NCBI GenBank assembly: GCA_030550015.1
Contig: JAUQQG010000041.1
Location: forward strand, 1-50,533
Length of the DNA stretch: 50,533 nucleotides
Direction of reading: 5' to 3'
From: a bacterium
GTDB lineage: Bacteria > Sysuimicrobiota > Sysuimicrobiia > Sysuimicrobiales > Thermofontiviventaceae
Position numbers and translations under genes: made by a program. Under the pieces are notes generated by a model. It saw nothing but the letters and a program-made list of their open reading frames with translations, was not told the origin of the DNA and did not search any database. Below, one piece after another: positions 6,202 to 38,044 of this stretch (within the stretch, counting starts at the first letter, position 1; the number at the start of each line of letters is the position of its first letter).

Positions 6202-8556
6202 CTACGGCCGGGGATCTGAAGATGCTGCGGTTGGTTCAGGCGCCATCACTGCCTTGATCTCGATGGGCGACCGCTTGCTCAAAAAGACGGCAACGGCGAT
6301 GAGCAGGGCCATCCCTACGACCACCGTGGCGCGTATCCCAAAGGGAAGGGGCCTAATCACCACAGGGGCAATGAGAATGGCCACAAGGTTCATGACCTTG
6401 ATGAGCGGGTTCAACGCCGGTCCGGCGGTGTCTTTCAGGGGGTCGCCCACGGTATCGCCGATGACGGCGGCTTTGTGATACTCCGTGCCCTTCCCTCCGA
6501 GGTAGCCCTCCTCGATCTTCTTCTTGGCGTTATCCCAGGCACCTCCAGTGTTGGCCATGAAGACGGCCAGGAGCTGTGCCGTGAGGATGGCCCCGGCAAG
6601 GTAGGCCCCCAGGGAAGCGGGGCCGAGGGCGAACCCCACGAGGATGGGTGCGCTGATGGCGATGAGGGCAGGGCTGAGCAACTCACGTTGCGCTGCTTTC
6701 GTCACAATGTCCACCGCGCGAGAGTAGTCGGGGCGGCTCTTCCCCTCCAGCAATCCAGGGATCTCCCGGAACTGCCGGCGGACCTCCTCCACCACCAAAA
6801 AGGCGGAACGTCCGACGGCGCGGATGAGGAACGCGCTCACGAGGAACGGCACCGCGCCCCCGATAAGCAACCCAATGAAAACCTGCGGGAGGTTTACCTG
6901 GATTCCCACGGAGGTGAGGAGCCCTTGTGCCTGTTCGACACCCGCGGCGGCAAGCTCGCGCACATCCACAAAGAGTCGCGCTTCATCGATGAACGAGCGG
7001 AAAAGGGCAATGGCCGCGACGACTGCGGTAGCGATGGCAAATCCCTTGGTGAGGGCTTTTGTGGTGTTTCCCACGGCATCGAGACGGGCCACGATGCGCC
7101 CGGTAGGGGTATCTCCTCGCTCCACCCCCGACATCTCAAAGATGCCGTTGGCGTTGTCCACGATGGGGCCATAGGTGTCCATGGCAAGAATGAAACCGGT
7201 AGTGGTGAGCAAACCGAGCCCTGAAAGGGCGATGCCGTAGGCGGAGAGCGCCAGGTTCCCTTTGAAGATAGCCATGGAGGCTCCAATCGTCAGGGCGATG
7301 GCCAAGATCGCCCAGACAGTGCTCTCCATTCCAGTGCCCAACCCCGTGAGGAGCATCGTGGCTGGCCCTGTCCTGGTGGCGTGGGCGATCTCCGTGACCG
7401 GAGCCCGATCCGCGTGGGTGAACAACTCGGTGAGCCAGCCGATGACCAGGGCGAGGAGGATCCCGGTGAGGGTCGCCAGGAAGAACCGGAAATCCGGGGC
7501 ACCGGTTACAGGGTCGCGGAGGTAGAAGTAGTTCACCAGGCCGAACCCGGCGATGGAGAAAAGCGCCGACACCCAGAATCCCACGTTGATGGGCTTCATG
7601 GGATCGCCAATCTCCTCATCCTTGGCCCGGACGCTCCAGGTGCCGATGACAGAGGCTACGACCCCGATGGCGCGCACAAGGAGCGGATAGATGATCAGCT
7701 TGAGGGCAAAACCTGCGGCGGCTGCGCCGTAGAGGGCAACGAACTGAGGGTCAAGGAGCGTGGCAGCGCCAAGGATGATGGCCGCGACAAGGGTGACCTC
7801 GTAGCTTTCAAAGACATCTGCTGCCATTCCCGCGCAGTCCCCAACGTTGTCCCCTACGTTGTCGGCAATGACCGCGGCGTTCCGGGGATCGTCCTCCGGG
7901 ATGCCTACCTCCACTTTCCCCACCAGGTCTGCTCCGACGTCAGCGGCTTTTGTATAGATCCCTCCCCCCACGCGCATAAACGCAGCCACGAGCGATCCGC
8001 CGAACCCGAATCCCACGAGGACCCGCATGGCGTCTTCCCGGAAGAGCATGAACATGATGGTTGCCCCCAGGAGCCCGAGGCCCACAGTGAACATCCCCGA
8101 GATGGTCCCAGCCTGGAAGGCGATCTCAAGGGCTTCCTTGTAGCTTCTCCGCGCGGCGTTGGCCACCCGAACGTTTCCCTGCACCGCCGAAGTCATGCCC
8201 ACGAACCCGGCTCCGTAGGAGGCGAAACAACCCAGGAGGAATGCCCCCGCCACGCCCAGGGTCAAAAGCGGCCGGCCGGCATAGATCGGCCGGTACAGAA
8301 GGTAAAGACCTATCGTGATGAGAACGATGACGGGTAGCATCGCGCGGAGCTGCCGACCGAGATAGGCCAAAGCCCCTTCCTGGATTGCAGCGGAAACCGC
8401 CACCATGGTCTCCGGGCCAGGCGATTTTTGCAGTACCCGTCGCCGGAGGTACCATCCGTACGCCAGCGCGAGGATGCTTGTGGCCAAGACCACCCAGAGC
8501 AAGGTGGTTTCCAAGACGCCGAATTGAGGCAGAGTTACCGTGGCTTCGCTCATCAT
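6202..8556 (-). CDS. hppA: Membrane-bound proton-translocating pyrophosphatase, K+-independent type
   Basis: This membrane PPase of about 784 residues and some 16 helices hydrolyses pyrophosphate and pumps ions out of the cytoplasm. The active-site block is intact (DVGADLVGKVE, IPEDDPRN, DNVGDNVGDCAGMAAD), as is the C-terminal GDTVGDPLKDTAGPA. The K+-dependence determinant reads GNTTKALTKG, with Lys and Thr where K+-dependent enzymes carry Ala and typically Gly or Ala, so it belongs to the K+-independent class, whose known members pump protons. Of three clustered ATGs (8562, 8556, 8553), the one at 8556 lies six bases after AGGGAG and is preferred. A promoter and a perfect inverted repeat precede it. 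It lies just downstream of a fluoride-riboswitch operon. Confidence 0.96.
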   Translation of the reverse strand: MMSEATVTLPQFGVLETTLLWVVLATSILALAYGWYLRRRVLQKSPGPETMVAVSAAIQEGALAYLGRQLRAMLPVIVLITIGLYLLYRPIYAGRPLLTLGVAGAFLLGCFASYGAGFVGMTSAVQGNVRVANAARRSYKEALEIAFQAGTISGMFTVGLGLLGATIMFMLFREDAMRVLVGFGFGGSLVAAFMRVGGGIYTKAADVGADLVGKVEVGIPEDDPRNAAVIADNVGDNVGDCAGMAADVFESYEVTLVAAIILGAATLLDPQFVALYGAAAAGFALKLIIYPLLVRAIGVVASVIGTWSVRAKDEEIGDPMKPINVGFWVSALFSIAGFGLVNYFYLRDPVTGAPDFRFFLATLTGILLALVIGWLTELFTHADRAPVTEIAHATRTGPATMLLTGLGTGMESTVWAILAIALTIGASMAIFKGNLALSAYGIALSGLGLLTTTGFILAMDTYGPIVDNANGIFEMSGVERGDTPTGRIVARLDAVGNTTKALTKGFAIATAVVAAIALFRSFIDEARLFVDVRELAAAGVEQAQGLLTSVGIQVNLPQVFIGLLIGGAVPFLVSAFLIRAVGRSAFLVVEEVRRQFREIPGLLEGKSRPDYSRAVDIVTKAAQRELLSPALIAISAPILVGFALGPASLGAYLAGAILTAQLLAVFMANTGGAWDNAKKKIEEGYLGGKGTEYHKAAVIGDTVGDPLKDTAGPALNPLIKVMNLVAILIAPVVIRPLPFGIRATVVVGMALLIAVAVFLSKRSPIEIKAVMAPEPTAASSDPRP

Positions 8557-8568
8557 TCCCATCTCCCT

Positions 8569-8598
8569 GAGGTATAACCTCGGTAGAGGTTATACCTC
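8569..8598. repeat. Perfect 13-bp inverted repeat in the hppA leader
   Basis: GAGGTATAACCTC and its exact reverse complement are separated by GGTA. The repeat ends two or three bases before the hppA ribosome-binding site and lies downstream of the predicted hppA promoter. In RNA it would form a 13-bp hairpin beside the start codon, and in DNA it is a typical dyad operator. There is no T-tract, so it is not an intrinsic terminator. Confidence 0.8.
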
Positions 8599-8693: not shown

Positions 8694-9449
8694 TCATCTC
8701 CGTCGGATACGGACCTCCATAGGATCTCTGCCTACGACCATCTGGATCGCTTGTGCCCAGGAAGTAGCTTCCTCCTCAGTGATGGGTTCGTGGCTGAAGC
8801 GGTAGTCATGCTTGCGGATGAACTCCCCGAGGGACCCCACAATGTTCTGGAGTACCTCTACCTGGATTTGGGCCAAGCGGCGGATCTGAGTTGCTTCTCG
8901 GGCGATGGCCACCCCCATCTGGAAGTGGGGCAAGCAGAGCCACGAGGTGGTACTGAGCCGCTCCTGAACTTCCAGATCGTTCAGGCGCTCCAGGAGGGCC
9001 GCAAGCGCAGTCTCTTCCGTACTCCGGGCAACCTCGCAGGCAGGACAGGCTCGCTTGGGGAGCAAGGCCGACCTCAGGCGTGCAGCTGATTCCCGGGCAT
9101 CCCGCCGAAAGCCCGAGATCGGAGTTCTTTCTGCGAACAACCGAAGTTCCTGGAGAAGTTCCTGCAGGAGGTGGCGGTAGACAATTGCCACACCAAACGC
9201 GTCATAAAATTGTTGGAGCGCCCAGGCATGGTGCAAACAGAATCCCCGCGAGGTCAGGAATTCCTTCCTCGCCCCGGGGTCGTTCACCCGTTCATACAGG
9301 AAACCATCGAGGAAACGCTGGGCTGCCCTGTTTGCAAGCCAGCAGATCGGACAACCCCCGAAGGAAAGAGCTTCTCGCACCTTCACAAAGATGAGATCAT
9401 CCCCGGGGATCGCCTTCTTCTGATTCGCCTGGCGTCGTGGGATGCGCAT
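8694..9449 (-). CDS. Conserved unknown protein with two CPxC/CxxH motifs (DUF6062-like)
   Basis: This 251-residue soluble protein has two repeats of the same pattern: CPIC then FCLHH in the N-terminal half, and CPAC then LCLPHF in the C-terminal half. Each repeat could bind one metal ion through three Cys and one His, or carry a redox-active CxxC. Between and after the motifs it is helical and rich in charged residues. The layout resembles the poorly described DUF6062 family, but I cannot confirm this without a profile search. The ATG follows GTGAGGA with 7-bp spacing. It is the third gene of the fluoride-riboswitch operon, 9 bp downstream of the preceding gene. No enzymatic motif is visible, so the function is unknown. 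Confidence 0.8.
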   Translation of the reverse strand: MRIPRRQANQKKAIPGDDLIFVKVREALSFGGCPICWLANRAAQRFLDGFLYERVNDPGARKEFLTSRGFCLHHAWALQQFYDAFGVAIVYRHLLQELLQELRLFAERTPISGFRRDARESAARLRSALLPKRACPACEVARSTEETALAALLERLNDLEVQERLSTTSWLCLPHFQMGVAIAREATQIRRLAQIQVEVLQNIVGSLGEFIRKHDYRFSHEPITEEEATSWAQAIQMVVGRDPMEVRIRRR

Positions 9450-9458
9450 TGCTCGTCC

Positions 9459-9836
9459 TCACCCTGATGCCTCATTCCTGACTGCCATCGCTTGAACCTG
9501 CGCGCGGAGGGAAGTAAGGATCTCTTCCAGATCCATGAGGGATCGCTTCCCCTGCTCGAGGGATGCTGTGAGGCCGGTGATGTTCATCTCCAGGGCACGG
9601 ATGCTCTCATCGGCCACATAAGCCCGGTGGCGGAGCGTGGCAAGCTCTCCGCGGGCAGCGCCAAGCGAGTGCAGGAGATCATCCTTTGGGGTCCCCGCAT
9701 GAACGGCGAATCCATATCCCAGGAGGATGCGGATGCCTTCTTCCTCTCTCCACCCCTGGGCTCGGATGACCTCGACCACTTGCCTTAATACGGCTTCATC
9801 AAGAACGAATTGTACCTCGACCACCGAATCAGCCAT
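9459..9836 (-). CDS. Small coiled-coil protein, second gene of fluoride-controlled operon
   Basis: This 125-residue protein of unknown function has an N-terminal compact domain (VVEVQFVLDEAVLRQVV, then WREEEGIRILLGYG) followed by a helical, coiled-coil C-terminal half with heptad-like Leu spacing. The N-terminal domain matches the pattern of the preceding gene product (a beta strand, a helix, then G(x)3EEG and L(L/I)xxG), so the two are probably paralogues. The ATG at 9836 overlaps the end of the upstream gene by 8 bp, showing translational coupling. A longer frame upstream exists but only reads through the overlapping gene. There is no signal peptide or membrane segment. I do not recognise a named family. 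Confidence 0.75.
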   Translation of the reverse strand: MADSVVEVQFVLDEAVLRQVVEVIRAQGWREEEGIRILLGYGFAVHAGTPKDDLLHSLGAARGELATLRHRAYVADESIRALEMNITGLTASLEQGKRSLMDLEEILTSLRAQVQAMAVRNEASG

Positions 9837-10302
9837 GGAGACTTCGCAGAAACCGGTGGATGCTTTCCCAAAACCCTTTGCGGGCGGTCGGCCCTTCTGC
9901 TCGGGGATGCGTGGAACTGGCCAGGAGCATCTGTAGTCGCCTTCTTTCCTCTTGCATGGCAAAGAGACGGCTACGAATCTCTCTGTACTCGGCGGTCATG
10001 GTGTTCGCCTGTTCAATCAGGGCATGCATTTTCTCTTCCGTCTCCAAGGTGCGCGCGCGCATCGAGAGGAGGTGAGCGACAGCTTCGCGCCACTGGAGCT
10101 CCAATCTCTTTGGATCGTGCTCAGGCGTGCCTGTAGCGGAGAGGGATTCCCATACCTTCTGATCACAAGTGTAGTGGTGGGCGCCCTCTCCGATAAGCCA
10201 GGCAAAGCCTTCTTCCACGGACTTGCCACAGTCCGTCAGCAAGGAGGTAATCTTCTCATAGTCTTCCCGGGCAAGGGTGAGGCGCACAATCTGCATCTCC
10301 AA
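9829..10302 (-). CDS. Small coiled-coil protein, first gene of fluoride-controlled operon
   Basis: This 157-residue cytoplasmic protein of unknown function begins with a compact domain (MQIVRLTLAREDYEKITSLL, then KSVEEGFAWLIGEG). A long helical region follows with coiled-coil character, rich in Glu, Arg and Leu. The TTG at 10302 is an available start, and the ATG two codons on (10296) is equally possible. GAGGG lies 8 bp before the TTG. Its leader contains the fluoride riboswitch, so it is the first gene expected to rise with fluoride. Its C-terminus overlaps the next gene by 8 bp. It shares the EEG...LLxxG pattern with that neighbour. The domain and coiled coil suggest a structural or regulatory partner rather than an enzyme. 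Confidence 0.75.
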   Translation of the reverse strand: MEMQIVRLTLAREDYEKITSLLTDCGKSVEEGFAWLIGEGAHHYTCDQKVWESLSATGTPEHDPKRLELQWREAVAHLLSMRARTLETEEKMHALIEQANTMTAEYREIRSRLFAMQEERRRLQMLLASSTHPRAEGPTARKGFWESIHRFLRSLHG

Positions 10303-10477
10303 GCAAGGTACCCTCTAATTTCGGAAGATGCTCCGGTGAAAGTCGAAAGAATTTTGTCGGATACTTCCTGAAACCCGGATTTCGCAAGTTCTGTCTGTGG
10401 TAGTGGCCACAAACCGCATACCAAGCACACCTTCGTTCATGGAGCGAACGATTTCCCTTCACCTATTGGGTGAAGCG

Positions 10478-10508
10478 AAATAAAAAGCTCCTACCACAGG
10501 TAGGAGCT
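10478..10508 (-). terminator. Intrinsic terminator of the fluoride riboswitch
   Basis: A 10-bp perfect stem, AGCTCCTACC paired with GGTAGGAGCT across a 3-nt loop, is followed on the minus strand by TTTTTATTT. Its 5' arm is shared with the aptamer's pseudoknot strand, so ligand binding and termination are mutually exclusive. This is the classic layout of a fluoride-activated switch. Confidence 0.9.
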
Positions 10509-10552
10509 ATCAGCCTGCGAATGCAGGCAGAGACGGCGAGCCCCATCGCCGT
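10499..10552 (-). ncRNA. Fluoride riboswitch aptamer (crcB motif)
   Basis: On the minus strand, stem P1 is ACGGCG/CGCCGU around the loop AUGGGGCU. P2 is GCCUGC/GCAGGC, followed by the hallmark CUGAU and then AGCUCCUACC. The P1 loop GGGGCU pairs with AGCUCC to form the conserved pseudoknot, with one G-U pair. All landmarks of the fluoride class are present in order (GGCGAUGG, CGCC, CUGAU, CUCCUAC). The pseudoknot strand is also the 5' arm of the terminator, so fluoride should switch expression on. The genes it controls are not the usual crcB or CLC-F exporters but two small coiled-coil proteins and a CPxC/CxxH protein. Confidence 0.92.
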
Positions 10553-10571
10553 TTTTGATTTCCTTGTTTGA

Positions 10572-10601
10572 AACATAGCACCTGGACACAGAAGTTGTCA
10601 A
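10572..10601 (-). promoter_or_regulatory. Sigma-70 promoter of the fluoride-riboswitch operon
   Basis: On the minus strand TTGACA (10601-10596, a perfect -35) and TATGTT (10577-10572) are spaced by 18 bp. Transcription would begin near 10565, about a dozen bases before the aptamer's P1 stem, as expected for a short riboswitch leader. Confidence 0.75.
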
Positions 10602-31439: not shown

Positions 31440-31783
31440 CAAAGCCAAGCAGGCGATGAAGGGGAGGAGTAAGCCTCTACTACCCTTCCAGAGAGGAGAG
31501 CGGAGAGGTGGGAGGCTCCCAGGGTGGGTGGCTGAACGTCGCCCCGGAGCTACGGGATGAAGAGGAGTAGTCCCGGCCGGGTACGCCCGTTATCGCGTAC
31601 GGCTCCAGAGAAAATGGGGAGGCTCTCTGGGGCCTTAGAGGGCCAGGTCTAGACCTTCTTCTGCGGGCCCAGCAATCTCTTCTCACTTGATCTCGATTCC
31701 GCGGATCCTGAGGTCTGGACCCTGGAAGAAAGGTGGTACCGCGGGGCGCTGCCTCGTCCTTTCCCAGGAGGGGCGGCGTTTTT
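31440..31783 (+). ncRNA. T-box leader sensing uncharged tRNA-Val
   Basis: The region between lon and valS carries the T-box sequence AAGAAAGGTGGTACCGCGG (31727-31745). Its TGGT can pair with the acceptor end of an uncharged tRNA with discriminator A. A Stem I-like fold precedes it, with GCTGAACGTCGCCCCGGAGC (31531-31550), in which GTC (31538-31540) is the likely specifier codon for valine. It ends in a terminator hairpin. Uncharged tRNA-Val should stabilise the antiterminator and turn valS on. The identity of the specifier fits the downstream gene. Confidence 0.93.
31746..31783 (+). terminator. Terminator of the valS T-box leader
   Basis: A GC-rich hairpin, CGCTGCCTCGTCC with GGAGGGGCGGCG, is followed by TTTTTATTT. 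It overlaps the 3' end of the T-box, so terminator and antiterminator exclude each other. Confidence 0.85.
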
Positions 31784-37946: not shown

Positions 37947-38044
37947 CCTCTCTTCGGCAGCTCAGCCGGCCCGGTGCCGAGTTGGCGCGGGACCCTGATG
38001 CTTTGCGCCCCCGGGTCGCCCCGGGTTTGCCTTTGTCGGAGAGG
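37947..38044 (-). ncRNA. Cyclic di-GMP class I riboswitch (GEMM-I)
   Basis: Minus-strand landmarks appear in order: GGCAAACC, a short hairpin capped by a GCGA tetraloop (CGGG-GCGA-CCCG), GGCGCAAAGC, a P2 stem (GGUCCCG/CGGGCC), and the tetraloop-receptor side GGCUGAGCUGCCG. The closing stem pairs CCUCU (38044-38040) with AGAGG at 37951-37947. That strand contains the protease's ribosome-binding site (AGAGAGGTGG), so ligand binding should hide it and lower translation. The GCAAAC and CGCAAAGC cores are diagnostic of the class. A 3',3'-cGAMP variant cannot be excluded by eye. Confidence 0.85.

Follow-up and report, generated by a model that had tools for sequence, protein, structure and literature searches.

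We examined a 50,533-nucleotide (nt) stretch of DNA, the window, from a bacterium of the family Thermofontiviventaceae in the phylum Sysuimicrobiota (GenBank assembly GCA_030550015.1, contig JAUQQG010000041.1). Within it a fluoride-type riboswitch aptamer lies on the minus strand ahead of three open reading frames (ORFs), A (9829..10302), B (9459..9836) and C (8694..9449), which are followed on the same strand by the gene for a membrane-bound pyrophosphatase, HppA. An initial annotation of the locus had stated that the genes under control are not exporters, and A, B and C indeed match no exporter family. Taken together, the data suggest, with a probability of roughly 75%, that a variant fluoride riboswitch serves here as an ON switch at the level of transcription, and that the genes behind it answer fluoride by some route other than export.

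The leader RNA of the A-B-C operon

The aptamer occupies 10494..10559 of the minus strand. Its match to the Rfam fluoride riboswitch model, RF01734, reaches 41.1 bits, where the gathering score is 34 (E 4.5e-8 for the whole window), and all 6 of its 6 pseudoknot pairs are formed. Downstream, an intrinsic terminator stem-loop (10486..10508, minus strand; stem 10508-10486) runs into a T run, TTTTA, at 10485-10481. The 3' strand of the pseudoknot doubles as the 5' arm of this terminator, so that the two structures are mutually exclusive and have the geometry of an ON switch. Ahead of the aptamer lies a sigma-70-type promoter (10572..10601, minus strand) comprising a perfect -35 element, TTGACA, at 10601-10596, an 18 nt spacer and TATGTT preceded by TG, with 10 of 12 consensus bases in all. 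Comparable promoter matches are about as frequent in the region as chance predicts (2 vs 1.5 expected), and the main support for this one is its placement ahead of the aptamer. The minus-strand fluoride aptamer with its pseudoknot, the shared-strand terminator and the perfect -35 promoter of the initial annotation were thus all recovered, the aptamer with a significant covariance-model score.

The leader of the window folds with -40.5 kcal/mol (z -6.35 vs shuffles). When it was aligned with its counterparts from the phylum, 15 leaders in total, the pseudoknot cells were paired in 100%, the P1 cells in 93.3% and the terminator cells in 99.2%; covariation is modest because most pairs are invariant. 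None of the 15 leaders varies at the positions that we mapped to A6, U38, A40, U41 and U48 of the studied aptamers; the roles of these residues are those given in the available text of PMC11586693 and PMC11077080.

We infer that fluoride is the ligand of the window aptamer. Without ligand, the terminator would capture the 3' strand of the pseudoknot and transcription would stop at about position 10481. With ligand, the pseudoknot would hold, termination would be prevented and A-B-C, perhaps together with HppA, would be transcribed.

Three features go beyond the initial annotation: HppA follows C, the conserved linker motif between P1 and P2 is absent from the aptamer, and ORF A starts about 190 nt past the aptamer, compared to 20-44 nt in 12 of the 12 relatives printed. 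This long distance, together with a decayed operon copy in one relative (G029), would suit an aptamer that is a decayed relic, with the genes expressed independently of it. We regard this as very improbable for the window, where the model score is above gathering, the pseudoknot and terminator are perfect and the promoter is in place. In some relatives, L035 and L056 among them, the closest stretch upstream of ORF A that could bind a ribosome appears to be a GGAG in the 3' arm of the terminator, and therefore translation may be controlled besides transcription. Matches to the RNA families SCARNA3 and P26 over the leader fell below their own cut-offs and were dismissed.

Conservation of the operon and a linker variant in the phylum

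We followed the operon through 43 genomes of the phylum, the genome that holds the window (G000) being a 2.65 Mb draft that is 94% complete. Genes were assigned from tblastn, profile or Pfam matches, as gene callers picked wrong frames in these GC-rich loci. ORF A was found in 15 of the 43 genomes, by a profile search within the phylum only, and in 15 of 15 it stands behind an aptamer. For 13 of these genomes the aptamer is detected by RF01734 at E<=0.001. In G005 the RF01734 match is sub-threshold, at 22 bits, and in G029, whose operon copy is the decayed one, the evidence is from model R1 only (45.4 bits). As this model derives from the other 14 leaders and a locus with C alone, it is not independent evidence for those sequences. 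ORF B has strong matches in 14 of the 43 genomes and 3 further weak matches, to the coiled coil. In a wider search of 386 genomes, which scores few candidates per genome, all 17 genomes that matched ORF B came from the phylum and none from roughly 343 others.

The initial annotation had asked whether the same genes follow homologous aptamers elsewhere, and they do: A-B is present in 14 of the 43 genomes, and C adjoins it on the same strand in 8 of the 14. ORF C itself occurs in 11 of the 43, standing alone behind a variant aptamer in G036 and surviving as a fragment in G016. Two arrangements weigh against the ON-switch reading. A-B is found without C in 5 of the 14 genomes (G003, G008, G012, G025 and G028), and in G011 C is on the other strand, inside a cluster with a canonical aptamer. 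Two single loci are also of note. In L138 (G029:C310, about 700-1130) the operon is decayed, with ORF A broken and the pseudoknot degenerate by eye, and ORF B had no match anywhere in that genome. In L139 (G014:C22 18122-18200, minus strand) an aptamer-like R1 match precedes a frame that is NUDIX-like by eye.

The aptamers of these loci form a variant. None of the 15 aptamers that precede A-B-C, A-B or a lone C has the P1-P2 linker AAC[C/U]G, whereas 27 of the 27 others fetched from the phylum do; one partial match (L058, 23.8 bits) was excluded from the latter. The linker AACCG is written in upper case, as conserved, in the RF01734 consensus, yet to our knowledge it is not known to contact fluoride. 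Both kinds of aptamer coexist in 12 genomes, which is a stronger point than the Fisher value of 1e-11 for the split, since the sequences are related and that value cannot be read as if the events were independent. The genome of the window is one with two RF01734 matches. The other one, a canonical aptamer scoring 60.7 bits (L003, G000:C23:1-652), precedes a Na_H_Exchanger-like antiporter gene that has a frame break and is truncated by the contig end. Having variant and canonical aptamers in one genome provides a natural pair for asking what the conserved linker does.

Absence of the linker counts against the ON-switch reading, since ligand or affinity may differ, and we therefore file the aptamer as a variant. 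One version of the ON-switch reading holds that the linker change tunes affinity or kinetics alone, with A-B-C turned on at higher (or lower) fluoride than the antiporter in a two-step response within one cell. The 12 genomes with both kinds of aptamer and the unchanged core positions fit such tuning, as do the RF01734 scores, which tend to be lower for the variant copies (28-48 bits) than for the others (about 33-61 bits) with overlapping ranges; a lower model score, however, is not a lower affinity. We put this version at close to an even chance.

DUF6062 and fluoride aptamers in other phyla

ORF C belongs to DUF6062 (PF19538; 66.7 bits, cut-off 27), and this family extends the link with fluoride aptamers beyond the phylum. 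A pattern search gave 67 DUF6062 loci, 62 of which, from 60 genomes, lie outside the phylum. RF01734, mapped on the loci with the faintest partial matches left out, was found on the same strand within 600 nt upstream in 20 of these 62, of which 12 exceed the gathering score; counting the whole fetched locus raises the number to 26 of the 62. A separate motif test was positive in 22 of 62 upstream windows. Elsewhere in these loci, 67 of 1730 control windows were positive, and some of the controls contain real riboswitches. Set against this, in 42 of the 62 loci no RF01734 match was mapped to the 600 nt upstream of DUF6062, 8 of the 20 upstream matches are below the cut-off, and RF01734 has no match in the loci of many Chloroflexota members, among them a clade of nine rows. 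On a quick tree of the family the aptamer label changes at least 10 times against a shuffled mean of 15.8, and is therefore clustered; it may have been gained or lost repeatedly, with well-supported branches forcing only 4 changes. The tree counts L050, L081, L089 and L114 as lacking an aptamer, though fluoride aptamers lie elsewhere in these loci.

The linker of the 20 upstream aptamers bears on what the variant senses. Ten keep AAC[C/U]G exactly, and 13 of the 20 do so if G or A is allowed last; canonical aptamers therefore also drive DUF6062. Ligand change has happened in other riboswitch families, and the A-B-C aptamers could likewise form a genuine variant class that has given up fluoride as its ligand, perhaps for another small anion or a metal-anion complex, and serves a related but different stress. 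Such a change would agree with the perfect split between paralogous aptamers, 12 times within one genome, and with the distinct gene context of the variants. We nevertheless find it improbable, given the invariant core positions, the intact linkers upstream of DUF6062 in other phyla and the G011 copy of C inside a canonical-aptamer cluster.

DUF6062 sits among known fluoride-response genes. A Pfam search of ten chosen neighbours identified MFS_1, enolase, a small HEAT_2 protein (with what looks by eye like a zinc ribbon) and H_PPase in L063, CRCB immediately behind DUF6062 in L066, NADHdh in L105 and L114, Na_H_Exchanger and Usp in L089, and MFS_1 in L039; tblastn extends these neighbour families to further loci. 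According to the available text of PMC11139923, Na+/H+ antiporters, pyrophosphatase, enolase and formate hydrogen lyase are riboswitch-associated. We also noted a small protein in which two CxxC pairs precede HEAT-like repeats (L063 9149-9424, L096 1904-2290, L089 6629-7129), which recurs in fluoride-riboswitch clusters of several phyla and is another candidate fluoride-response gene. In L105 and L110 at least three fluoride-type aptamers, spread over both strands, form an island of a few kb.

As a regulon assignment, the new branch of fluoride response proposed in the initial annotation has good support, since homologues of the aptamer are followed by the same genes and DUF6062 alone follows aptamers in other phyla. 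A-B-C likely belong to the fluoride regulon. What is new here is the linker variant, the wide DUF6062-aptamer link and the missing exporters.

The encoded proteins, transporters and neighbouring features

ORF A encodes 157 residues from a TTG start, with an ATG two codons on also possible, and is a paralogue of ORF B, which encodes 125 residues. The relationship of the two, claimed in the initial annotation, was confirmed by profile comparison (probability 94.9, E 4e-8); of the coiled coils it assigned to both, the one in B agrees with the predicted model. This model of ORF B has an extended N-terminus, helices at 14-27 and 31-46 and a long helix at 51-124, with a predicted local distance difference test score (pLDDT) of 82 and a predicted template modelling score (pTM) of 0.42. 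Its topology fits strand-helix-helix, the strand being extended but unpaired in the single-chain model, and suggests a ribbon-helix-helix-like N-terminus joined to a long coiled coil. The Foldseek list includes the ribbon-helix-helix proteins NikR, CopG, Arc, MatP, AmrZ and CdbA, all weak and with E above 1. In a family search of 12 members, one matches RHH_5 and one FitA-like_RHH, both weakly. Counting against this assignment, every Foldseek match of ORF B has E above 1, and a profile search of the PDB returned mainly designed ankyrin (DARPin) chains, taken as chance. We propose that A and B may form a ribbon-helix-helix-type heterodimer joined by the coiled coil. A DNA-binding role for the pair is plausible at somewhat less than even odds, in which case fluoride would switch on a second-tier regulator or a nucleoid binder.

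The same weak ribbon-helix-helix matches of single members, together with weak matches between ORF B and RelB antitoxin chains that fall short of significance (E 0.05-0.07), could instead indicate antitoxin-like or phage-defence proteins with an incidental riboswitch context. A, B and C have no PADLOC and no PHROGs match at E<=0.01, no toxin-like partner was seen, and ORF A is behind an aptamer in every genome that carries it. An antitoxin or defence function is accordingly highly unlikely.

The initial annotation had described ORF C as a double CPxC/CxxH protein. Two CPxC...CxxH sites are present, and the protein is DUF6062, whose profile matches 49 of the 49 members of our alignment. C33, C36, C71 and H74, and C135, C138, C172 and H175, are invariant in the 49 alignment rows; the two CxxC...CxxH sites are a feature of this alignment and not a stated Pfam criterion. 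The predicted model is all-helical (pLDDT 92), and C may be a helical protein stabilised by metal, probably zinc. No known fold could be assigned to it, which weighs against the main reading: the best PDB profile match has E 0.23, and Foldseek gave no PDB match at E<=0.001. No paper was found for DUF6062 by name in a full-text search of the open-licence literature. Our guess, and a doubtful one, is that ORF C protects or replaces a fluoride-sensitive cytosolic process.

A, B and C were also considered as disguised exporters, and no transporter family matched; in particular, Pfam gave no CRCB or Voltage_CLC match among the three, and neither was found in the genome of the window. CrcB (PF02537) is present in 3 and CLC (PF00654) in 6 of the 43 phylum genomes, in a search whose controls matched in 10 of 14 and 12 of 14, on draft genomes that can miss genes. 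Neither exporter was found in 12 of the 14 A-B genomes, that of the window included; G003 has CrcB and G012 both. Of the 15 genomes with ORF A, 12 encode a specific major facilitator superfamily (MFS) transporter, mostly near a fluoride aptamer. The exceptions at E<=1e-30 are G000, G009 and G029, although in G009 a weaker relative follows C (E 2e-21). The family (L039 4066-5259 and homologues) occurs in fluoride clusters across phyla and is strong in 15 of the 43 phylum genomes. One guess is that this transporter and the antiporter supply the missing export step where CrcB and CLC are absent.

The HppA gene (6202..8562, minus strand) follows C and has a weak promoter-like match upstream at 8682-8654. 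It is possibly the fourth gene of the A-B-C unit. As a fixed part of the operon it was rejected, with no match adjoining A-B-C in the fetched relatives; L052 has one partial match, about 4 kb from another aptamer, and the fluoride clusters L063 and L072 contain HppA. Between C and the HppA start lies a perfect 13 bp inverted repeat with a 4-nt loop (8569..8598, minus strand; fold z -4.93) and no T run, possibly an operator or a translation hairpin near the ribosome-binding site. Elsewhere, the window has a T-box leader at 31447-31764 on the plus strand (98.4 bits) and a cyclic di-GMP-I riboswitch at 37953-38041 on the minus strand (51.7 bits); a mir-3135 match was dismissed as below its cut-off.

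A proposed non-exporter response compared with known systems

Hot springs are often fluoride-rich. They are a habitat of the phylum, according to the available text of PMC11604079. Fluoride riboswitches have so far been strong pointers to fluoride-response genes, and here the aptamer points to DUF6062, a family found repeatedly behind aptamers of this kind across several phyla, and to the paired A and B proteins. How cells mostly without the usual exporters survive fluoride thereby becomes directly testable with one gene family. A bolder proposal, which we hold only tentatively and think rather unlikely in full, is that bacteria without either known exporter rely on an intracellular defence under the control of a linker-less aptamer subclass whose affinity or ligand is its own. 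This defence would consist of A-B as a heterodimeric ribbon-helix-helix regulator and the metal-site protein DUF6062 as a general, hitherto unnamed fluoride-protection protein in the phylum and in Omnitrophota, Chloroflexota, Bacillota, Spirochaetota and others.

Comparison with the known systems indicates where the locus departs from them. Relative to the RF01734 fluoride (crcB) riboswitch, the P1, P2 and pseudoknot architecture, the mapped core nucleotides and the overlap with the terminator are the same, whereas the window type has no AACCG between P1 and P2 and precedes A-B-DUF6062 rather than an exporter. ORF B shares with MatP/CdbA-type ribbon-helix-helix proteins a modelled extended start, two short helices and then a coiled coil, but differs in having no significant sequence or structure match, its DNA binding being only predicted. 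Pfam assigns DUF6062 no function, and the fluoride link is an addition of the present analysis. As far as the available text of PMC11139923 and PMC2864571 goes, DUF6062 and the A/B pair are not named among the known fluoride regulons of CrcB/Fluc, CLC-F, Na+/H+ antiporter, pyrophosphatase, enolase and formate hydrogen lyase, yet several DUF6062 clusters carry at least one such gene, and in the window HppA adjoins A-B-C.

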